From assembly GCF_041821025.1 (NCBI RefSeq), contig NZ_JBGUAY010000002.1, positions 248,001 through 312,000 on the forward strand: a DNA stretch of 64,000 nucleotides, given 5' to 3'. Positions 4,399-21,690 of this stretch are shown piece after piece. A program made the translations under genes and the position numbers. The notes below the pieces were generated by a model. That model did no database searches, had not been told where the DNA came from, and was given only the letters and a program-made list of their open reading frames with translations. Each line of letters starts with the position of its first letter. Within the stretch, counting starts at the first letter, position 1. The stretch is from Egicoccus sp. AB-alg6-2. Lineage in GTDB: Bacteria; Actinomycetota; Nitriliruptoria; Nitriliruptorales; Nitriliruptoraceae.

Positions 4399-5238
4399 AT
4401 GCGCAGATACCGACTGCTCGGCATCAGTTTCGACTCTCGCCCTTCCGTCCTTGGGACTGAGATCTCGTCAGATTGGGATCTGGAGGTACAAGCACAATGG
4501 AAGAAGAACCACCGAAGCTTGCGCGAAGACCTGCAGGCCTACTTGGGCTCTGCTGAGTGGGCAAGGAAGGAACAGGATTTTGTTGAACTCGGCCAGGCTC
4601 CCTGGATCGTCGTGTTCGACGGATCCGATGAGGTTCAGGAAGTGCGTAACACCTTCGCCAGCGGCAACTATCGAGCCGCGGCCGGTGCAGCCGGTGCCCT
4701 CGGCGAGCGATTCCTGAACATGCTCGTTCGAGATCTACGTGAAGAGTTCCCGCCGGCATCCGTTCAACTTGCGCGCAGATGGTCTTCCAAATGGCAGCCG
4801 CTAGTTCGAGCACTAGAGGACTGGGGGGTCTTCACCGAGGACCTCGCGGCTGCGGCCATGCGCCTGGCCGCGCTTCGCAATATGGCGCTCCATAGAGGAT
4901 TCGCGAGCGACGGGCGGTCGGAGGCGATGGAGGCCCATGGCATTCTGCGTACATTGATGGAGGGAGTGCTTGGTGGGCTTCCTCCAACTCGATGGTTCAT
5001 ACAGCACCACGCGCATGAGCCGCTCATCGCGGAGGAGTATGAGGCGCATCCCGTAGTTCAGGTCTACTACGCCCCGCAGTCAGCTTATGTGGGTCCTTGG
5101 CACAAGCTTGACTTCGAGCCCGCGCCGGGAGGCATGCGTGTCGTTGTACATGATTCCCACGAGTACGCCGACGTGTCGATATCGGACGACGAATTCCTTG
5201 CGCTGCGACGGGAAGGGCCGCCGCTGTCGGACGCATAA
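4399..5238 (+). CDS. HEPN-motif protein, putative RNase/defence gene
   Basis: A 279-residue protein with ATG at 4399; no named family is recognised. Residues about 75-195 are mostly helical and contain F-A-S-G-N-Y-x-A-A (about 86-93), A-L-G-E-R-F-L-N (about 100-107) and R160-N161-M-A-L-H165. Together these match the layout of HEPN domains, whose R-N-x3-H motif is the catalytic centre in RNase members. The C-terminal part (about 200-279) looks beta-rich and carries no known motif. The gene stands alone between long non-coding stretches, with visibly lower GC than the conjugation genes. HEPN toxins and effectors are common in defence islands, and the neighbourhood agrees, but nuclease activity is inferred. 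Confidence 0.55.
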   Translation: MRRYRLLGISFDSRPSVLGTEISSDWDLEVQAQWKKNHRSLREDLQAYLGSAEWARKEQDFVELGQAPWIVVFDGSDEVQEVRNTFASGNYRAAAGAAGALGERFLNMLVRDLREEFPPASVQLARRWSSKWQPLVRALEDWGVFTEDLAAAAMRLAALRNMALHRGFASDGRSEAMEAHGILRTLMEGVLGGLPPTRWFIQHHAHEPLIAEEYEAHPVVQVYYAPQSAYVGPWHKLDFEPAPGGMRVVVHDSHEYADVSISDDEFLALRREGPPLSDA

Positions 5239-5790
5239 TCGTCAGCAGGGTGCCCGTGTCGCACGCGAAGATGCACGATCTGCGGACGACAGCTCGACCA
5301 GCGCTTAGTAAGACTCCCTGCTTGGACGTCGTAGATGGCGGTCAGACGTGCCGTTCGCGGTGCTTACGATCACGAAGTGCGGCAGGGCCCTCAGGGCTGC
5401 GCGACCTACTCGGAGAGTAGCGAGACACTTTGCCGTCACAGCGAAGCCGCGGGGGGCGTCCGCGAGGAGGCACAGCGCCTACATTGCCCCGTCGCCGCGC
5501 TTGTGGACACCCTTCTACGGGGCTTCTGCCTTGGGTCTTGCCCTTGGGCCGCTGTGGCCACGGCAAGTCAGTAGCCGTCATCCATCCGGCCACACGCAAT
5601 GTGCTCTGTTGAGGTCGACCAGTTCGTTGAGAGGAGTCGCGCTTGAGCGTCCGGTTTGGTGGCTCCGCGACGGTGGCAGCCGTGCCCCGTCCGTCCGCCC
5701 GCCCGCCCGCCGTCCTTCGGCGAACGTGTTGCGGGGCGGCATGTCGCAGTAGTCGCCTACGGTGCCGCACGCCGACTGGGAGGCAACGGC
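5239..5790. other. Non-coding gap
   Basis: About 550 bp with no supported gene. Reading frames here are short, Arg/Ser-rich and without a ribosome binding site. The last 60 bp presumably hold the promoter of the following restriction-like gene, but no clear -35/-10 pair is visible. Confidence 0.4.
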
Positions 5791-6735
5791 ATGGAATGGG
5801 AGCTGCAGCCGGGGGACACCATTCTCCGAAAGCACCTGCACGAGCAGTATGGCGGCAGCGGCCAGGGCGGGATCAATCCCACCAGGTCATCCGACAACGT
5901 GTTCGTGTTCACGGACCCTGAGACCGGACCGCAATACGGCTACCTCGACCGCTGGGAGGAGGGCATCTTCCACTACACGGGCGAGGGGCAGAAGGGTCCT
6001 CAGAGCATGAAGGCGGGGAACAAGCGGATCCGGGATCACACCCAAGACGGCAAGGCCCTGCGTGTCTTTGACGGGTCGCGAGGCGAGGTTCTATACATGG
6101 GCGAGTTTGCTCTGGACACGAGCAACCCGTGGTACTTCGCAAAGGCCCCCGAGTTTCAGAACCCCGACGTCCTGCGGCGAGTCATCATGTTCCGCATGGT
6201 GCCGGTCGGGTTGATCTCGACCCCGCAGGGCGTTGTCGTGGCAGGCCACCAGCCCATGGCCGAGGAGACCGAACTTGCCGCCACCGCGGTTGCCAAGCTC
6301 GCCGGAGATGGCGCCGGGTCCGGCCAAGGTTTCGCCAACAACGCGAAAGTCCGCCGTGCTGTCGAGTTGCGCGCGATGGCGTTGGCCGAGCAGCACTATC
6401 AGAGCCAGGGATGGTCGATCGACGACGTCTCAGCGAACCACAGCTACGACTTGCGAGCCACCCGGAACGGTGTCGAGTTGCACATCGAGGTCAAGGGTAC
6501 GCAGTCGCGCGGCCAGGAAGTGCTCCTGACCCCGAACGAGGTCGCTCATGCCCGCGCGTATCCCGACGTGTCGCTCGTGGTCGTGCATTCGATCGCCGTG
6601 ACCGAGACGAAGACACAGGTCGTGGCCGACGGGGGTGAGCTGGCGGTGTACGACCCGTGGTTGATCGACACGGGCGACCTCGCGGCCCTTGGGTATGCGT
6701 ACACCGTTCCGGGCGTGCCTGACTCAGCATCTTGA
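5791..6735 (+). CDS. Putative type IV restriction enzyme: SBD/SRA-like + DUF3883
   Basis: The ATG at 5791 is chosen for its upstream GGGAGG (5778-5783); the protein is 314 residues. Residues about 7-140 match the sulfur-binding/SRA-like PUA-fold module of ScoMcrA-type enzymes: L-R-K-x-L-H-x-x-Y-G-G, GGINPT, a Phe-x-Phe-T-D strand, YGYLDRW, F-H-Y-T-G-E-G-Q, A-G-N-K-x-I, then MGEF. Residues about 185-275 form a DUF3883 domain with D220 and I-E233-V-K235-G-T, the D...ExK layout of PD-(D/E)xK nucleases, followed by LTPNE. In ScoMcrA the reader is joined to an HNH nuclease; here a DUF3883 domain takes that place. The likely job is cleavage of DNA bearing phosphorothioate or modified bases. The activity is inferred from domains and the defence setting. 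Confidence 0.7.
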   Translation: MEWELQPGDTILRKHLHEQYGGSGQGGINPTRSSDNVFVFTDPETGPQYGYLDRWEEGIFHYTGEGQKGPQSMKAGNKRIRDHTQDGKALRVFDGSRGEVLYMGEFALDTSNPWYFAKAPEFQNPDVLRRVIMFRMVPVGLISTPQGVVVAGHQPMAEETELAATAVAKLAGDGAGSGQGFANNAKVRRAVELRAMALAEQHYQSQGWSIDDVSANHSYDLRATRNGVELHIEVKGTQSRGQEVLLTPNEVAHARAYPDVSLVVVHSIAVTETKTQVVADGGELAVYDPWLIDTGDLAALGYAYTVPGVPDSAS

Positions 6736-9198: not shown

Positions 9199-10005
9199 AT
9201 GCCACGCATCGCTCCCTACGACGTTGGCGTCATCGAGCGCATCGCTAAGGTGATCGGCGACACGGATCAAGGTCTCAAGGGCGGCCAGATCGGCGACTTG
9301 CTGGCCAGCCAGGGACTCGCCGACCCTGGCGAGATCACCAAGTGGCGCCGCATCCAACAGGCGCTGCTCGTCGAGCAGCAGCACACTCGTTCCGGGAACT
9401 GCGTACTCGCTCTCGTTCAGGCGGCGATGAGCCCTGTCCGCTGGGAGAGCCACTCACACTTCGAGCGACTGCGCGCCGACCTCAACAGCGTGCTGCTCTT
9501 CGTTGGTGTCGAACTGCGCGAGGACGGGAACCTCATCCATGTCTCCGCGGCCACCACCCACGATGAGGTTGCCTTGCGGACACGGCGCCTGCGCAAGGAA
9601 CTCGAGAGGCGCGGCTGCCACTCGGAGGTCTTTCAATACTGCACGCGGGAGCTGCTCGCCGAGGACTGCTTCACCGCCGTCTTCGAGGCGATCAAGGGGC
9701 TCGCCGAGCGAACACGGACTCTCGCCGGCGTCGACGAGGACGGCCACGCCCTGGTCGACGTTGCGCTGCTGGGCAGCTCACCGCGGATGGCGCTGAACAG
9801 CCTGAGGACCGAGACCGAGCGCAACGAGCAGCGCGGCCTGGCCAACATCATGAAGGGCGTCTTCAGCGCCTTCCGCAACCCGGCCGCTCACGAGACCCGG
9901 ATTGTCTGGAGCATCAGCGAAGCTGACGCCCTGGACCTGTTCGCCACCCTGTCGCTCGTGCACCGGCGGCTGGACACCGCCGTCCGTGTCCCCCAGGCAC
10001 CGTGA
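9199..10005 (+). CDS. TIGR02391-type (Ymh) protein with HEPN motif
   Basis: A 268-residue protein with ATG at 9199. The N-terminal region (about 1-75) is a helical module. The middle (about 95-150) contains a beta/alpha section, and the C-terminal region (about 150-255) has the signature of the TIGR02391/Ymh family: E-A-x-K-G-L (about 163-168), a G-x-x-x-A-L-x-x-L/V segment, Q-R-G-L-A-N-I-M-K-G and F225-R226-N227-P-A-A-H231-E. R-N-x3-H is the HEPN catalytic motif and P-A-A-H is typical of this family. Such proteins occur in prophages and defence islands and are presumed RNases. It is convergent with the CBASS operon, ending 66 bp from the JAB gene stop. Family call good, function inferred. 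Confidence 0.7.
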   Translation: MPRIAPYDVGVIERIAKVIGDTDQGLKGGQIGDLLASQGLADPGEITKWRRIQQALLVEQQHTRSGNCVLALVQAAMSPVRWESHSHFERLRADLNSVLLFVGVELREDGNLIHVSAATTHDEVALRTRRLRKELERRGCHSEVFQYCTRELLAEDCFTAVFEAIKGLAERTRTLAGVDEDGHALVDVALLGSSPRMALNSLRTETERNEQRGLANIMKGVFSAFRNPAAHETRIVWSISEADALDLFATLSLVHRRLDTAVRVPQAP

Positions 10006-10071: not shown

Positions 10072-10572
10072 TCACCCGGTTTCGCGCAAGTCGGTCCGCG
10101 TCCACTTGATGGGACGGCTGACGAGTGTGTGTCGCCGAGGGTCCCACTGCCAGCATCCGAGGTCTCGCCTCTGCGCCGTCCACGGCAGGACCGAAGTGGC
10201 GACGATCACCTGCAACGGGGACGGCAGCCCGACGTCGGGCTCGCCCGCGATGCCCTGTGCCGTCCTGACGTCCCGCGAGCTCGGGATCGCACTCCCCGCC
10301 GGGTGCGAGTGCCAAGAGCCGACGTAGCGCAACCGCCCGCCCGAACGGCGGTACTCGTCCACAAGGATGCGGTCGACGGCGGCGCTGTCCGGCTGGAAGG
10401 ACCCGCGGCGCCGCGTGGCATTTTCGACCCCGGCAGCCCGGACGACGACGAAGTCGCGGTCGACGATGTAGCCGACGAGTGGGCCGCCGGTCTCCAACCA
10501 TCGCCGGTGTCGTCGCAGCTCGTCGCGGATGTCGTCGCGGATGCGATGGTCGACCCAGATGCGTTCAGCCAT
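10072..10572 (-). CDS. cap3: CBASS JAB/Mov34 isopeptidase (Cap3)
   Basis: The ATG at 10572 gives 166 residues and overlaps the end of the Cap2 gene by 8 bp. It has a complete JAMM zinc-protease signature: E27 in WLETGG, then H88-S-H90-P-x6-S98-x2-D101 (SWHSHP...PSSRD). In type II CBASS, Cap3 removes target proteins from the C-terminus of the CD-NTase, opposing Cap2. It is the last gene of the leftward operon. All catalytic positions are present and length is typical for a single JAB domain, so activity is expected. Confidence 0.85.
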   Translation of the reverse strand: MAERIWVDHRIRDDIRDELRRHRRWLETGGPLVGYIVDRDFVVVRAAGVENATRRRGSFQPDSAAVDRILVDEYRRSGGRLRYVGSWHSHPAGSAIPSSRDVRTAQGIAGEPDVGLPSPLQVIVATSVLPWTAQRRDLGCWQWDPRRHTLVSRPIKWTRTDLRETG

Positions 10573-12202
10573 GGCGGTGGCAGGCTTCGTGGACCTCGGC
10601 CTTTCCAGTGTGCTTCTTGTCGGTGTGAAGGTCATACACCGACCAGTTTTCCTCCAGCTGTTCCGGCTCTCCTCCACTGAGTTCCTGGATCGCCGTCCTT
10701 GTCACCAGCGCTGCGAGGTGCGTCGCGGAGAACCCAGGCCCAGGGAAAGCGGGCATCCTGCATGCCACTGGCGTGAGCGGGGTGGCAGGTGCTGCCGCCG
10801 GCGGTCGGGGAATCGCCCCGTCCTCCTGGTGCAGCTTAAAGCAGTCGAAGCACGGTCCCTCGCGGCGCTGCAGCAGCAGCTCGCCGCCGTGCACGCCGTA
10901 GGACAGCCCGGCGATCAGCAGGCCGCCGACGCTGCGGCGCAGGGCTGCGGCCGTGCGTGCCACGTCCGTGGAACCGGTGGTGTCAATCAAGAGGTCCGCT
11001 TCTCCCACTGCGGCGACGACGTCATCGGCGTCCCGGCAGGACGCTCCGAGCCGTGAGGTGATGCCTTTTGCTCGCACGTACGGGTTGTACTCGCGTGCGG
11101 CCGCGGCGACGCCGTCGGCCTTCAGGACGCCTGCGGCAGTGACCGGCAGGACGTGACGGACGGCGTTGCCGACGTCGTAATGGTCGTCGTCGATGATGGT
11201 CAGCAGGCCGATTCCGGCCTTGGCCAGTTCGATCGCGACGGGTGACCCGAGCGATCCTGCCCCGATGATGGCCACGTGCTTATGCGCCAGACTCTCGAGG
11301 CCGGGCAGACGGATCTGACGTGACGCGCGGCTGAGCTCCTGGCCTTGGCTCAGCGTGACAACCCGGTAGGTGCTGCTGGCCTCGCTGTGGATCTGGGTCA
11401 GCACCCAGGCGCGACGTTGTTGACCGCGGGCAGGTCCCTCCTCGAGGAAGGTGAAGAAGGCCGCCCGGGGGTTGCTCTTCACACGCCGAAACAGTGCCCG
11501 AAGACGTTGAAGCGGAACCACGTCCGCGAGGTTTGTGGCGAGCCCAGGCGGCGGGAGCGGATCGTCGATGGCGTACCACGGAAGACAGATGAGGTCGTCC
11601 GGTTCGGCGCCTCCAGCCAGACTCGCCAGTGCAGGATGGTCTTCCGGGACGAGCGGCCGGCCTGAGGCGGTGGTGGCCTTCCGGCTGATCCAGGCTCCGG
11701 AGCTGAGTGGCTGCATCCAGATGTTGCCGCGCTTGGTCGGCAGCGTCTCTTCCCACAGCGGGTCGGTAAGGATGAACGCCGGAGCGTTGTAGTAGTAGAA
11801 CGCCGTGACAGGTTCGGCCCAGGGGACCTCTGAGTCGGCCACGGCCTCGCCCCCGTCCTGCAGGTCGCTGAGGAGCTTCCGCAGGCGAGGGATGAGGGTG
11901 TCGGCTGCGCTCCAGGCAGGTGACCAGTCCCCTCCTTCCGGATCAGGGAAGAGGCACAGGTTGCCGCCGGGCTCGTGATGACGTGGGAGGAGGCGGTCCC
12001 TCAGGTACGCCCGAGGCATCGCGTCCGGGTAGAACGCGGGGAAGATGATCTGGATGTCTTCCCAGCGGCCCGCTGCTCGGACACGCACCTTGACGACCAT
12101 GGCATCGCCGTCGGGCTCGTGCTGCGGCTTCAAGCCGACCTGTCGGAACCGCTCCAGCTCCCACTGCAGGCGATCCGGGTCGCGTTCCCACCAGCGCTGC
12201 AT
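10565..12202 (-). CDS. cap2: CBASS E2-E1 ubiquitin-transfer fusion (Cap2)
   Basis: A 545-residue protein starting at ATG 12202, four bases after the CD-NTase stop; an alternative GTG at 12226 would overlap that gene. Residues 1-110 are an E2-like domain with the conjugating Cys C83 in GNLCLFPDPEGGDWSP. Residues about 300-530 are an E1/ThiF adenylation domain with GAGSLG (314-319), the acidic DDDHYD turn, the NAVRH segment near 346-350 and cysteines C451/C454 in GPCFDC, candidates for the thioester Cys. A linker of about 190 residues joins them. Cap2 conjugates the CD-NTase C-terminus to cellular targets and primes its cyclase activity. Order and composition are those of type II CBASS. Confidence 0.85.
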   Translation of the reverse strand: MQRWWERDPDRLQWELERFRQVGLKPQHEPDGDAMVVKVRVRAAGRWEDIQIIFPAFYPDAMPRAYLRDRLLPRHHEPGGNLCLFPDPEGGDWSPAWSAADTLIPRLRKLLSDLQDGGEAVADSEVPWAEPVTAFYYYNAPAFILTDPLWEETLPTKRGNIWMQPLSSGAWISRKATTASGRPLVPEDHPALASLAGGAEPDDLICLPWYAIDDPLPPPGLATNLADVVPLQRLRALFRRVKSNPRAAFFTFLEEGPARGQQRRAWVLTQIHSEASSTYRVVTLSQGQELSRASRQIRLPGLESLAHKHVAIIGAGSLGSPVAIELAKAGIGLLTIIDDDHYDVGNAVRHVLPVTAAGVLKADGVAAAAREYNPYVRAKGITSRLGASCRDADDVVAAVGEADLLIDTTGSTDVARTAAALRRSVGGLLIAGLSYGVHGGELLLQRREGPCFDCFKLHQEDGAIPRPPAAAPATPLTPVACRMPAFPGPGFSATHLAALVTRTAIQELSGGEPEQLEENWSVYDLHTDKKHTGKAEVHEACHRHG

Positions 12203-12206
12203 GCCG

Positions 12207-13178
12207 TCAGCCGTAGCGTTCGTCACGTGGGGCACGCGGGCGCGAAGCGACGTGTCCGGGAGCGGGAGGGCTCGGCGGTGCGGCTGAGTTGCCTCCGTCG
12301 GGGAACGGAGGAAAGGCGTCCCCGAGCAGGTCGCGCCAGAGGTCGTGCGCGTCCTTGGAGGTGCCTGCTGCCAGAGCCTGCTCGGCGATCTCCGCGGCAT
12401 CGGACAGGTGGTTCTTGAACAGCTCGAAGTCGTCGTCGGACCAGGTCTGGGTTAGGTCCTCGTCGGGCAGTGATGGGTTGCACAGCTCCGGAGGTGTGTC
12501 GTGCGGCGCGAGGCGCTCGTGCATGTTGGCCAGCGTGGTGGCGAGGGCTGTGGCATCGTCTGTCTCTCCGGCGGGCAGGGCCTCGGCGACTAGGACCTGA
12601 AGAACGATGGACTTGATGCCGCGCCGGTCGTCGTCCTCTGTCTCGTCGCGCCAGCGCTTGAGCATGCGGACGGTGCGGGCGAACTGCTCCGGCTGCTGCA
12701 GGCACCAGTCCTGGAACCCCTGCGGGTTGGTCTCCCGCCATCCCGTGTTCCGGATCGGGATCTCGAGATGGCCATCGGCGCATGGTCGGGCCGCGACGAC
12801 GTCGACGTGGAACGATCCGTATTCGTCATCCTCATAGTTCAGTCGGACGCAGCGCGGCTTGCTGGTGTCCAGACGCTTGGCGTAGTCGTCGCTCTCGGAG
12901 AGGATCTCCTCGAGCCTGGTGAAGGCGGCGTCGGGGTCGTCGATGTCCGCTGCGATGATGGCGCAGGAGTCGACGTCGTAGCCGCCGCTGCTGTCGGCGG
13001 GACGCACAGCCGTGCCGTTCGGGTACGACCCCTGGAGGAACACGTCGTCGGGCGAGATTTCGGCGTGGCGGACGATGTGGTCCTTCAGCCGGTCCCAGGC
13101 GCTCTTGATGCGGTCCTCTGGCTGGGTCGGCAGGGCGATCTTGTCGAAGAACTCGTCGAAGGCGTCACTCGGCGGCAT
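12207..13178 (-). CDS. CBASS CD-NTase (cGAS/DncV-like nucleotidyltransferase)
   Basis: A 323-residue protein. The ATG at 13178 is chosen because GGAAGG lies upstream and the conserved region begins at once; longer frames give low-complexity N-termini. Nucleotidyltransferase motifs are G50-S51-Y-P-N-G-T, Y-D68-V-D70-S and the third metal ligand D126 in FHVDVV. It makes a cyclic oligonucleotide on phage infection that switches on the effector. The C-terminus ends in a flexible Pro/Ala-rich tail and Gly, as expected for a CD-NTase conjugated by Cap2. The gene overlaps the upstream membrane-protein gene by 14 bp and is followed at 4 bp by cap2. The cyclic product cannot be told from the sequence. 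Confidence 0.85.
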   Translation of the reverse strand: MPPSDAFDEFFDKIALPTQPEDRIKSAWDRLKDHIVRHAEISPDDVFLQGSYPNGTAVRPADSSGGYDVDSCAIIAADIDDPDAAFTRLEEILSESDDYAKRLDTSKPRCVRLNYEDDEYGSFHVDVVAARPCADGHLEIPIRNTGWRETNPQGFQDWCLQQPEQFARTVRMLKRWRDETEDDDRRGIKSIVLQVLVAEALPAGETDDATALATTLANMHERLAPHDTPPELCNPSLPDEDLTQTWSDDDFELFKNHLSDAAEIAEQALAAGTSKDAHDLWRDLLGDAFPPFPDGGNSAAPPSPPAPGHVASRPRAPRDERYG

Positions 13179-13953
13179 GGGTGGAACCTTCCGGTCGGTG
13201 TGGCGGTGTGGGCTGGCGGAGTCGGCGGTAGTGCCACCAGGGCCACAGGCGTGGCAGTAGCCACGGTGAGAGGTGTCGGCGGACGGCGGTTCGGAAGTCG
13301 GAGTCAGCGGTCTGCAGGTTGGGGTCGTTGGCGGGGTGAGTATCCTCCGGCCGGGTCCAGCCGCGGACCTCGCGGCGGGGCTGCTCCCATGCCACCTGGA
13401 GCGGCTCCTTGCAGGCAGCCTTGATGCACTCGATGAGCTCGTCGTAGGCCAGGGCCATCGTGGGGGATTCCGCTGCGATCCAGCCCCGGTAGTAGTCGAC
13501 TTGTTCTTGTAGGTCGTGCAGGTGGTTGACGATCTGTCGCTGCGCTTCGGGACTGTCGTCACGACGACGTACGCGGTAGACGGCTTCGATCCAGCCGCGC
13601 GCGGCTTGATAGGCGGAACCGAATGTGTCGCGGCGGCGGTCGCGGACCTCCGCCAGGCGACCAGCGAGGTAGGTCAAGAACGTTGCGGTAGCGGCAACGA
13701 GAGCAGCCCACGGGATGATGTCCCACAGCGTGGCTGCGCTGTTGGTGGCGGCGTCGGTTGCGATCGTCAGGTCTAAGGCCTTTGCGGTGGTCAGTCCACT
13801 CTGCCAGTCGGGTGGGACAGCAAGCCGGAGATCGCACAGATGATGAACGGGCCGCTCGGGCACGTCGAGCGTCCACCGATTCGCCCGCCGGAAGTCCCAG
13901 GGCAACCGTGAGGGCTTAGTCCCGACCGAACCCGCGGGTGAACCCGTCGACAT
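13165..13953 (-). CDS. Single-TM protein, candidate CBASS effector
   Basis: First gene of the leftward CBASS operon, 262 residues from the start at 13953; the first 50 residues are weakly protein-like, so the true start may be internal (for example the GTG near codon 31). One strong TM helix spans about residues 77-98 and is followed by a basic stretch (R-D-R-R-R-D) and a long helical cytoplasmic domain (about 105-205) with conserved-looking S-P-E-A-Q-R and Y-Y-R-G-W-I-A-A-E-S elements. The tail is Trp/Pro-rich. CBASS effectors are often membrane proteins that disrupt the envelope when bound by cyclic nucleotides; position and 14-bp overlap with the CD-NTase fit that. It does not match the 2TM-SAVED, Cap15 or 4TM types I know. 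Confidence 0.55.
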   Translation of the reverse strand: MSTGSPAGSVGTKPSRLPWDFRRANRWTLDVPERPVHHLCDLRLAVPPDWQSGLTTAKALDLTIATDAATNSAATLWDIIPWAALVAATATFLTYLAGRLAEVRDRRRDTFGSAYQAARGWIEAVYRVRRRDDSPEAQRQIVNHLHDLQEQVDYYRGWIAAESPTMALAYDELIECIKAACKEPLQVAWEQPRREVRGWTRPEDTHPANDPNLQTADSDFRTAVRRHLSPWLLPRLWPWWHYRRLRQPTPPHRPEGSTHAAE

Positions 13954-14366: not shown

Positions 14367-15407
14367 TCATGCGGCGGCGTCCAGGGAGTACCGGCGGGCG
14401 TCGTTGAGCAGGTGCTGGTAGATCACGTTGGAGAGCTGCCGTTTGAGGGCACGCATCGCCTCGCGGCGGGTCTTGCCTTCGGCCATGCGGCGCTGCAGAT
14501 AGGCCCGGCCGGCACTGTCGTGTGAGAGCTGGCTGAGTGCGACGAGGTGGATGGCGGCATTGAGCCGCCGATTGCCACGACGGGATAGCCGATGCACGGA
14601 CCGGTCCGCAGACGAAGCTTCGATCGGGGCCGTGCCGGCGTAGCTGGCGAAGTGTCCTCGGGTCGGAAACCGGGTCATGTCGCCGGCGTGTCCGATGATC
14701 ACCGCGGCCAGCACGGGCCCGACGCCGACGATGTCGGTCAGGGTCGTGTCCGACGCGGTGACGGCCTGGCGGATGCGGCCATCGATGTCGGCCAGCTGCC
14801 GATCGACACGGCGCAGGTCGGCGAGTAGCTCGCGAAGCAGGCCACGGCGATGCTGATCGACCACGCCATCGACGCGCAAGCCCTTGAGTAACCGTGCGAC
14901 CTGATCTGCGGTCAGGTTGGTCTTGGCACCGCCAGCACGAAGGTGACGGAACTGGTTGTGGATCCGGCAGATGATCCGGTTGCGCTCGTGGGCGATGTGG
15001 TCACGGCGGTCTGCGAGCATGCGCAAGATCACCGTGGTGTCCTCGAGCGTCACCGGCCGCAGCCGTTTGCCGTGCAGCGCCGCGATTGCGGTCGAGCGGG
15101 CGTCGTGGCTGTCGGACTTGCGGGCCGATCCGCCCGAGAGCAGCCGCACCCGGGCCGACAGGGTTGCGGGCACGTCGATGACCGGCTCACCCGCGCGAAC
15201 CAACTGTTGGGCCAGCAGCCGTCCGAGACCTGCGGCGCTCTCGACCGCCCAGCGGCGGTCGGGCCAGCGTTCGGCGAATGCCAGCAGCTGGTCGAGTTGG
15301 CGGCGGCCGGCGACGAGTCGGAGCTGGTCGAGGACCTGTTCGGTGGTGTCAATGGCCACCGCGGTGTGTGAGCTCTTGTGGGGATCGATGCCAATGATGA
15401 CGTCCAT
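14367..15407 (-). mobile_element. IS110-family transposase gene
   Basis: The ATG at 15407, with GAGGAG 6 nt upstream, gives 346 residues. The N-terminal DEDD (RuvC-like) domain begins VIIGIDPHKSSH and continues with AVESAAGLG and the K-S-D-x-x-D-A-R motif near residues 95-102. The C-terminal transposase_20 domain shows D-I-V-G-V-G-P-V-L-A and SYAGTAPIEASSADR with the Ser-rich site typical of IS110 recombinases, ending in A-L-K-R-Q-L-x-N-V-I-Y. The reading frame is intact and of full length, so the element may be active. Related elements use a structured non-coding RNA from the element end to choose target and donor sequences. Confidence 0.9.
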
Positions 15408-16171
15408 GCCGTTCTCCTCATGTTGGTGAAGGAGCCACGGCGGACAGTCCTGATGCGAGTCGCCAGTCCTCTGTCGAGTCACGCCGAGGCCAGGCTCCGG
15501 CAGGCGCACCTCGTTTTCAAGTCAACCCATTGATGAGGGCGACAGGGGATTTCCGAGCGTTCTGCCGGAGCCCTACGACGCTGACACCAGCGCCAGCCTC
15601 GCGCCAGCAGCATCCCCATCAGAGGATTTCCGAGCGGCTTCCAGTTCATGGCCGGACGAGCGAGGCGCCTGCAGCGAGCCCCCTCGTCAGGGGATGCCGG
15701 CGACGCGGCACCGAGGGGGTCCGCCCTGGACGTGACAGCGCGGCAATCAGAGGGTTCCCATCCGGATCACCGCGCGTAGGGGCGTCTGTCACCTCCCCAC
15801 CGAAGAACCCGCCTGGCCCACACGAGTGTCAAGGTACTCGTCCGGAGCTCAAGCTCACGGCGGACCTCGCTGGTTGGCTTGTGCCGAAACCCGCACGGGT
15901 TGGTGCCGACGACTTCCAGACCGGAACCTGCGTTCTGAGAACCGTCGATTCGCGGCGCTCAGGACGATAGGCACCCGCCCGCTTCCAAGCGGCTGAGGGC
16001 GACCCGCTCGACAATCCCCGCTTCGAGCGCTTCCGCGGAAGCGCCGAGGTCGTAGAGCCACACAAAGTTGGCGGTCACGACCCTGGCCTCGATCGAGGGG
16101 TCGCACCGCCAGCAGTCCCCGGGGCCGCGATCGCAGAGACTAGCGCCTATTCGCGAAGGGTGACCTCCACC
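15408..16171. other. Non-coding stretch upstream of IS110, possible bridge-RNA end
   Basis: About 760 bp without a supported gene. In many IS110-group elements the end upstream of the transposase carries the bridge RNA; the part next to the gene (about 15408-15640) is the place to expect it here. It contains two copies of a near-identical motif (15543 and 15619) and weaker relatives near 15687 and 15747. No boundary can be drawn. Confidence 0.3.
15543..15636 (+). repeat. Two near-identical motifs upstream of IS110 tnp
   Basis: CAGGGGATTTCCGAGCG at 15543-15559 and CAGAGGATTTCCGAGCG at 15620-15636 differ at one base and lie 77 bp apart. Weaker relatives (TCAGGGGATGCCG near 15687, TCAGAGGGTTCCC near 15748) continue the spacing of roughly 65-75 bp. 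Confidence 0.5.
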
Positions 16172-19716: not shown

Positions 19717-20547
19717 TCGTGCCGCGCAGAGCGGCCGCGGCCTCTGGGGTCGTTGTCGCCGACGGGCATCGCCGGGTAGCCCGGGCTAGCGACCATCAGT
19801 CGACCGCCCCGTGAACTTCCGAAGAATCCGATATCTCAAGTGCGCGCCGGCCCCACGGGGTGAGCAGGCGCGAATCCCACCATGTGGGTCGGCGACATGC
19901 GCTCGACGACGACCGATCCGGGATCACATCCACCGCAGAGGCTGAAGAGACGTGAGCAACCACCGGGCGACTATGCGCAGGCTGGTGGCTCGGGCAGCGC
20001 ACCCGAAGTCAGCGCTCCTCAGGTGAAGTCGTTCGGGCATGATTGCCACAGCGGCACCGGCGGGGAACCGAGGTTCGGGAAGCGGCGTCCCGATGAGACC
20101 ACCAGACTGACAGGTGTGTGGCAATCAGACGATCGTCTCCGGCCGCTCTCGTGCTTGACTTCGACACCGATGCCTACCACCGGTGGACCCCTGAGCTGAG
20201 GTGGAGCCGGCCACCTAACTCCCGTCGGTGGGCACACGTTGGGCCGGGTCGCCGACCACGAGGGAGAGGAGGGATGGGCCCGTTGTCGCGGTGAGATCGG
20301 GGCGAAAAGCCGTTAGTTGAAGCTTCATGGGTGCCATCTGGGTGCCATACTACAGAGTATCTACAGAAACGCCCCGATACCGAATGGGACACGAAACGAC
20401 ATAGCCGCAGGTCAGAGCCGGTTTTTCGCCATCGGGTGGGACGCGCGGAAATCGGGCGAAACGGGCGAACTCCGGCTCATAACCCGGAGGTCTGCTGCCA
20501 CCTCGCGTACGGTCGGGGTGCGCGTGTTGAGACATTGGAGCGCGTGT
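19717..20547. other. Non-coding gap containing repeat copy B
   Basis: About 830 bp without a supported gene. Its right part carries the second copy of the 170-bp repeat (20313-20488) and, from 20536, the ribosome binding site of the HNH gene. The left part shows nothing recognisable. Confidence 0.45.
20313..20488 (+). repeat. Imperfect direct repeat, copy B (att-like)
   Basis: Same orientation and block order as 6817-6990. This copy ends in ACTCCGGCTCATAACCCGGAGGTC (20469-20492), where CTCATAAC sits in a 6-bp stem (CTCCGG/CCGGAG). That resembles the anticodon arm of an elongator tRNA-Met, a frequent integration target. The sequence to the right does not continue as a tRNA. Copy A lacks this last part. 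Confidence 0.5.
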
Positions 20548-21690
20548 GTGAATGAGGTCACTAGCCAGAGCTCGCCACTCGCGTTCGGGGAGAAGCTGCT
20601 CTCGTTGCTCGACACGGGCAGCTTCACCACGACCTACAAGTACGCGCTGTTGCTCTCGCTGCTCGACGCGACGGTGGAGGGCACCGACGCCGACGGACGG
20701 GCGCCAGCGACGCTGTCGGGCCGCGACCTCGGTCGGCGAGTTTTCGAGCTGTACTGGCGGCAGGCTCGACCCTTCAGCGAACACGGCCCGCTCCGACAGT
20801 CGCGCCAACGCGACCTCGTGGTCAAGATCGCCGAACTACGTACGCGGCTCGGCCTGTCAGAGCACGCATCGCTGGATGTCGCGCGGCGTGCTGACGAGTT
20901 GGCCGTGGCGCGCCTCGAACGCGAAGTCATCGCGACCGTCGTCCGCTATCCGATCCCGCTGCTCCAGCGGTTCGGATCCGGCTCAGGAGCGGTCGACGAC
21001 CGGTTCATCTACGGCATCGGCTGGGTAGCCGGGATCACCCAGGGGCGGGTGTTCGCCGCCGACTTCGACGACCGGCTCCATCTGCGGCCGGGAGCCGGCG
21101 AGCACCTGGCTGCGCTCGCCGGATTGGTCCGGCCGGTGATCGAGCGCGAATGGCTGCGCTACGTCGCCCGACGAAACGACGACCTCGTCGACGAACTGCG
21201 CCTCGAGACGTTCCTGTTCGGCAGGGCACGCATCTCGCTCGCCAACGTTCGTACGCCGCTGCTCGAACTGCAGGACGGCCGCTGCTTCTACTGCGGTCGC
21301 GAGCGTGGCCCGTGGGAGGTCGACCACTTCCTGCCGTGGTCCCGGTGGCCGGACGACCGTCTCGACAACCTCGTCGTCGCCGATCGGGGCTGTAACGGCG
21401 ACAAGCGCGCAGCGTTGGCCGCCCTGCCCCACCTGGAACGCTGGTGGCGACGGCTCACGCCGGGCACCGTGGAGCACGAGCATCTCGGTGCCATCGCGAC
21501 GCGGACGTCGTGGCCCCGTCGTACGGGCCGAACGGCTGGCGGCGCCCGCGGCCTCTACCTCCATCAGCCCCATGGGGCGCTGCTGTGGGAGGCGCCGGGC
21601 GAGGTTCGCCCCCTCGATCTGCGGCGGCTGCAGTCGACCCTCGCGTCACGGCAGGCGGCCGCCGAGGATCCCGGCGACTACACGCCGTAG
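20548..21690 (+). CDS. HNH endonuclease
   Basis: A 380-residue protein; the GTG at 20548 is preceded by GGAG and starts the recognisable protein, while an upstream in-frame extension would run through the repeat. Residues 1-230 are a helical N-terminal region with no motif known to me (L-L-S-L-L-D-T-G-S-F-T-T-T-Y-K-Y). The HNH core is C246-x2-C249, then E-V-D259-H260-F-L-P-W-S, N274-L-V-V and C282-N283-G-D-K, with the Cys residues forming the structural zinc site. The N-terminal layout is that of actinobacterial HNH proteins annotated only as nucleases. A DNA-cleaving defence or homing function is likely; the target is unknown. It is convergent with the NERD gene. Confidence 0.75.
   Translation: MNEVTSQSSPLAFGEKLLSLLDTGSFTTTYKYALLLSLLDATVEGTDADGRAPATLSGRDLGRRVFELYWRQARPFSEHGPLRQSRQRDLVVKIAELRTRLGLSEHASLDVARRADELAVARLEREVIATVVRYPIPLLQRFGSGSGAVDDRFIYGIGWVAGITQGRVFAADFDDRLHLRPGAGEHLAALAGLVRPVIEREWLRYVARRNDDLVDELRLETFLFGRARISLANVRTPLLELQDGRCFYCGRERGPWEVDHFLPWSRWPDDRLDNLVVADRGCNGDKRAALAALPHLERWWRRLTPGTVEHEHLGAIATRTSWPRRTGRTAGGARGLYLHQPHGALLWEAPGEVRPLDLRRLQSTLASRQAAAEDPGDYTP

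Follow-up and report, generated by a model that had tools for sequence, protein, structure and literature searches.

The gene at 5791-6735 of the window, the whole stretch of 64,000 nucleotides that was analyzed (positions 248001-312000 of its contig, in a host genome of 3.7 Mb that is 98% complete), probably encodes a single-polypeptide, NTP-independent type IV (modification-dependent) restriction endonuclease, in which an N-terminal SRA domain would flip a modified cytosine and a C-terminal DUF3883 domain would cut nearby. The basis for this reading consists of two predicted folds, their order, the conservation of both sites, the type IV-like partners that each half has in other proteins, and the absence of a cognate methylase. 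A preliminary description had proposed a type IV enzyme for modified DNA, which is likely, with the activity deduced from the sequence and a predicted model; the sulfur-binding function that it gave to the N-terminal half does not hold.

Gene and genomic neighborhood

The ORF is a real gene whose translation has no internal stop, and the YGYLDRW, YTGEGQ, D220, and E233-V-K235 of the preliminary description are all found in its 314 residues (Table 1). The ATG at 5791 is supported as the start by the GGGAGG box 7 nt upstream, while an alternative in-frame TTG at 5656, which would give 359 aa, is less likely. The gene appears to stand alone: the preceding plus-strand ORF stops at 5238. Local G+C is 0.62-0.66, compared with 0.68-0.74 in the first 4 kb of the window. 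No methylase was recognized by Pfam among the neighboring ORFs scanned, and PF00145 is absent from the host genome, which agrees with the lack of a cognate methylase expected of a type IV enzyme.

Table 1. Features of the SRA-DUF3883 gene and of the nearby CBASS genes (window coordinates).
Feature	Position	Strand	Basis
Gene, whole	5791..6735	+	314 aa plus stop; next plausible gene downstream on the minus strand
Shine-Dalgarno-like GGGAGG	5778..5783	+	Visible in the sequence itself; 7 nt separate it from the ATG at 5791
N-terminal SRA (PUA-superfamily) reader, aa 1-150	5791..6240	+	Profile, SAD_SRA matches of relatives, predicted fold
Predicted flipped-base pocket: Y51, D53, Y62-T63-G64	5941..5982	+	Conservation in 46 relatives and TagI counterpart residues
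Linker, aa 151-184 (34 residues)	6241..6342	+	pLDDT <50 at 153-183
Predicted PD-(D/E)XK-type nuclease domain, aa 185-303	6343..6699	+	PF13020 match 6364-6591 plus fold matches
Predicted catalytic D220	6448..6450	+	29/29 relatives
Predicted catalytic E233-V-K235	6487..6495	+	E and K in 29/29 relatives
SMODS/CD-NTase ORF of CBASS set	12210-13562	-	
E1-E2 (Cap2-like) of CBASS set	10568-12400	-	
JAB (Cap3-like) of CBASS set	10075-10677	-	

A CBASS type II-like set (10075-13562, minus strand) lies 4-8 kb from the gene. Just upstream of this set, an ORF with a hydrophobic stretch (13165-13953, minus strand) could be its effector. Adjoining the CBASS genes is a full-length match to PADLOC PD-Lambda-3_B with a Hypoth_Ymh domain (9199-10005, plus strand; 1.2e-70), and an IS110-family transposase sits beside the defense genes (14367-15509, minus strand). 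Further along the window, a 457-aa ORF (20317-21690, plus strand) has an HNH_4 domain at residues 333-366 (1.1e-7).

The N-terminal reader

The N-terminal module is an SRA domain and not a sulfur-binding domain. As a single sequence, the reader matches ScoMcrA weakly (E 0.17), and the N-terminal half of the query alone has no Pfam match, PF02182 (SAD_SRA) included. A 15-member profile of this half found ScoMcrA at E 9.5e-9, together with low-score matches to the SRA domains of plant SUVH5/SUVH9 and to TagI, and SAD_SRA is matched by 7 of 15 relatives of the reader (best 2.1e-8). Residues 1-150 are predicted to form the SRA beta-barrel, and their model resembles SRA-type domains of SUVH5, ScoMcrA, TagI, UHRF1/2, AspBHI, and LpnPI with Z of 9-12.7, led by SUVH5 SRA with 5mC DNA (12.7), ScoMcrA 256-402 (11.9), TagI (11.4), and UHRF1 (10.9). 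The structures matched include complexes with 5mC and 5hmC DNA, and Foldseek returned ScoMcrA at 1.6e-7 and SUVH5 at 1.2e-6. The model of the whole protein is of modest quality (mean pLDDT 65, with the tail at 267-314 below 50).

The part of ScoMcrA that aligns, residues 256-402, is its SRA-like domain, and to this extent the reader is of the ScoMcrA type, as had been described. The sulfur-binding domain of ScoMcrA is formed by residues 91-260, with a pocket of R117/Y164/P165 (PMC6224610). Consequently, the sulfur-binding reading was rejected on domain boundaries: the homologous segment is a different one, the 34-residue linker is too short, and no unassigned stretch of the size of a sulfur-binding domain is left.

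The motifs YGYLDRW (residues 49-55) and YTGEGQ (62-67) are as previously listed, while the third, given as GN-x-I, is in fact GN-x-x-I (GNKRI, 76-80). The pocket residues, whose possible absence had been raised, follow the SRA base-pocket pattern Y51/D53/Y62, which is kept in ~90% of 46 relatives. Conservation is 41/46 for Y51, 42/46 for both D53 and Y62, 36/46 for T63, and 46/46 for G64; N77 is also invariant. By alignment, Y51, D53, Y62, and T63 would be the counterparts of the TagI pocket residues Tyr55, Asp58, Tyr67, and Thr68 (PMC6212794), although the spacing from the first aromatic to the acid is one residue shorter than that of TagI. The pocket thus appears to be of the aromatic/carboxylate/Y-T-G kind, its equivalence to TagI/UHRF1 being one of sequence alignment and not of atom-by-atom superposition.

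Whether this pocket reads 5mC or 5hmC is a separate matter. A nucleolytic protein could have an SRA domain that recognizes another base (glucosylated hmC or some other hypermodified pyrimidine, or else a base that is not cytosine) or that is structural, with the modification sensed elsewhere. For example, the SRA-like domain of such an enzyme can be silent: in HHPV4I, the N-terminal SRA variant is dispensable and a winged helix reads m6A (PMC10101028; PMC11037411). The SRA domain of ScoMcrA is without the NKR finger, the thumb, and the canonical residues that read 5mC (PMC6224610), and the query itself falls below the SAD_SRA model, a further point against the preferred reading. However, the D53 carboxylate and Y62 aromatic of a cytosine-type pocket are kept in 42 of the 46 relatives, there is no winged helix or alternative candidate sensor between the two domains here, and ScoMcrA cuts cluster near methylated cytosines (PMC7461809). 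We therefore regard a different base or a structural SRA as unlikely, although it deserves to be kept in mind, and prefer a reader of modified cytosine.

The predicted C-terminal nuclease domain

The DUF3883/NOV_C family (PF13020) matches residues 192-267 at E 3.4e-12 and 46.7 bits, above its gathering cut-off of 22.1 bits, and the Pfam scan of the protein found no HNH domain. The earlier proposal of a DUF3883 module where ScoMcrA has HNH is therefore upheld. In the model, this part has the alpha-beta-beta-beta-alpha-beta order of a PD-(D/E)XK core: a helix (185-205), three strands (209-212, 221-225, and 228-237), a second helix (248-256), and a last strand (260-266). The D...(D/E)xK residues are present, with D220 preceding the strand at 221-225 and E233/K235 lying within that at 228-237. 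When the isolated domain model was compared with known structures, the leading matches were the PD-(D/E)XK nucleases Hjc, SPARDA, I-Ssp6803I, RecU, and EcoRV. The match to Hjc has a Z of 8.0 (Foldseek 1.5e-4), a value of about 8 being modest taken singly, and nearly all leading rows belong to the PD-(D/E)XK superfamily. The profile aligns the D and EVK with those of Hjc, at E 1.2, and a NOV_C relative (L017) also matches PF11645 (PDDEXK_5). Matches of the C-terminus to the tRNA methyltransferase TRMT10C had E values above 0.15 and were set aside as chance.

The predicted fold and the invariance of D220, E233, and K235, together with E250, in 29 of 29 relatives agree with the PD-(D/E)xK-like site that had been proposed. 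DUF3883 has been termed a novel REase domain by earlier authors (PMC3710099), and it is present in the defense models HmaA and TmtA. A demonstrated activity for any DUF3883 domain was not found in the literature searched, which leaves some room for a DNA-binding or regulatory protein that uses the PD-(D/E)XK fold for binding only. NO VEIN, the plant protein that gave the domain its name, is not known as a nuclease, and this counts in the same direction. A non-nucleolytic protein is nonetheless quite improbable, since the invariance of all four residues is unlike the drift expected of a dead nuclease, and HNH nucleases are among the partners that take this domain's place on the reader. A catalytic DUF3883 domain remains the preferred reading.

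Modification in the host

A host without a C5-cytosine methylase would be spared self-cutting by a 5mC-dependent enzyme, and none (PF00145) was found in the host genome. Because PF00145 is present in 10 of 14 control genomes, its absence here adds only a little support. A phosphorothioating host was also sought, and the genome had no match to DndC; this is weak evidence, as none of the 14 controls gave a DndC match above the cut-off either. Phosphorothioate is the least likely target, because the SRA domain of ScoMcrA is credited with 5mC/5hmC recognition (PMC7461809). Although the best PDB sequence match is ScoMcrA, an enzyme that owes its dependence on phosphorothioate to another domain, a phosphorothioate-dependent type IV enzyme is highly implausible given the domain boundaries above and a ScoMcrA crystal structure in which the SRA domain makes no contact with phosphorothioated DNA (PMC6224610).

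Domain partners and origin

Both halves of the protein occur with other partners. In an SRA tree of 63 rows, with partners assigned by motif search, the reader is joined to HNH in 28, to a D...EAK module in 21, to other partners in 12 (some cut by contig ends), and to NOV_C in 2. HNH is also found on the same reader in most of 24 matches from viral contigs, and single proteins join it to a McrB-like AAA ATPase (L005) or a Schlafen-group-3-type helicase (L036). On the nuclease side, three proteins have an MrcB_N domain (E about 1e-34) joined directly to NOV_C with no McrB ATPase (L117, 754-1962; L119, 865-1959; L121, 577-1959), and these are likely NTP-independent relatives of the McrBC readers. 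A Proteus mirabilis protein (L017, 2455-3405) is a parallel two-domain DUF3427-NOV_C fusion. EVE was considered as a further partner of NOV_C and rejected: the N-termini of L029, L065, and L010 are EVE-like by eye, Pfam found no EVE domain in them, and L035 reached only E 0.063.

The combination of the same reader with an un-named module bearing D...EAK and 'TREAVRMAIGQLLDYRRF' is a common actinobacterial architecture (L022, many of L099-L124, and L013, 2992-3888). It has no C-terminal Pfam domain in the three examples scanned and looks like a second uncharacterized SRA-PD-(D/E)XK family. Gordonia phage Sidious has this architecture as well, with two methyltransferase genes next to it.

Complete SRA-NOV_C pairings numbered only two in about 1,550 genomes. 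The other one, found by a scan of genome contigs, is from an Acidobacteriota MAG (L002) and is 31% identical. Besides these two, only separate halves were seen in the genome samples, which covered 396 genomes of the host phylum, 394 of one class of that phylum, 297 of the phylum of the Acidobacteriota MAG, and 398 of the Sphingopyxis phylum (the last judged from match ranges only), and the viral scans held no further complete fusions. Two matches cut by contig ends (L004 and L094) could be further fusions. In quick trees, the two SRA halves were placed apart (p-AU 0.049, which is marginal), and the two NOV_C halves belonged to separate groups, each with strong support (p-AU 2e-5). Taken together, these sequence-based placements indicate that the fusions of the host and of the Acidobacteriota MAG arose independently.

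Discussion

Relating this protein to characterized enzymes helps to frame how it may work. It shares with the MspJI family (MspJI, AspBHI, and LpnPI) an N-terminal SRA-type reader, a C-terminal PD-(D/E)XK domain, and the lack of an NTPase (PMC6212794). The reader domains of AspBHI and LpnPI match at Z 9.6-9.8, and MspJI spans both model domains. However, the nuclease here is DUF3883/NOV_C, with Hjc-like nearest folds, and the reader belongs to the ScoMcrA/YTGEGQ type; sequence comparison showed no match to MspJI, which the nuclease domain alone resembles only in fold (Z 4.7). ScoMcrA (head-SBD-SRA-HNH) provides the closest solved homologue in its SRA-like domain, while our protein has no head and carries DUF3883 at its end; it is not a member of the ScoMcrA family, because two defining parts, the sulfur-binding domain and HNH, were tested for and are absent. 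TagI and ScoA3IV (SRA-HNH) have the same two-domain reader-nuclease layout, and for TagI the SRA fold and pocket pattern also agree, but their nuclease is HNH rather than PD-(D/E)XK. The MrcB_N-NOV_C and DUF3427-NOV_C proteins have the same C-terminal nuclease-like domain and differ in their N-terminal domain, which is not of the SRA type. We found no paper on SRA joined with DUF3883 in the literature searched, although the screen of Lutz et al. (2019) may include an earlier description.

By analogy, the mode of action may be like that of MspJI-type enzymes, with a nuclease from another family. The SRA domain would scan double-stranded DNA and flip out a cytosine bearing a modification (5mC or 5hmC being the most likely), which would be held between Y51 and Y62 while D53 reads its Watson-Crick edge. 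If TagI, VcaM4I, and MspJI are a guide, the DUF3883/NOV_C domains would pair, probably through dimerization, and D220, E233, and K235, with a divalent metal, would cut the DNA a short distance from the modified base. Its targets would be phages whose DNA contains modified cytosines, or methylated DNA that enters the cell.

Modular modification-dependent enzymes are expected to exchange domains while keeping a common function (PMC6212794; PMC7897488). We lean, with some reserve, toward the view that DUF3883/NOV_C serves as the general cutting module of a wide and for the most part undescribed type IV group with interchangeable readers (SRA, MrcB_N, and DUF3427), in which SRA and NOV_C were joined on two or more independent occasions. 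Many defense proteins contain DUF3883, and whether it is a nuclease can be asked directly here, since the protein is small, has two domains and a readable substrate hypothesis (modified cytosine), and comes with no ATPase or partner subunits. If active, it would extend the set of enzymes usable for mapping 5mC and 5hmC by a new combination of reader and nuclease. For the host, the gene probably provides a one-gene defense enzyme against viruses with modified DNA.
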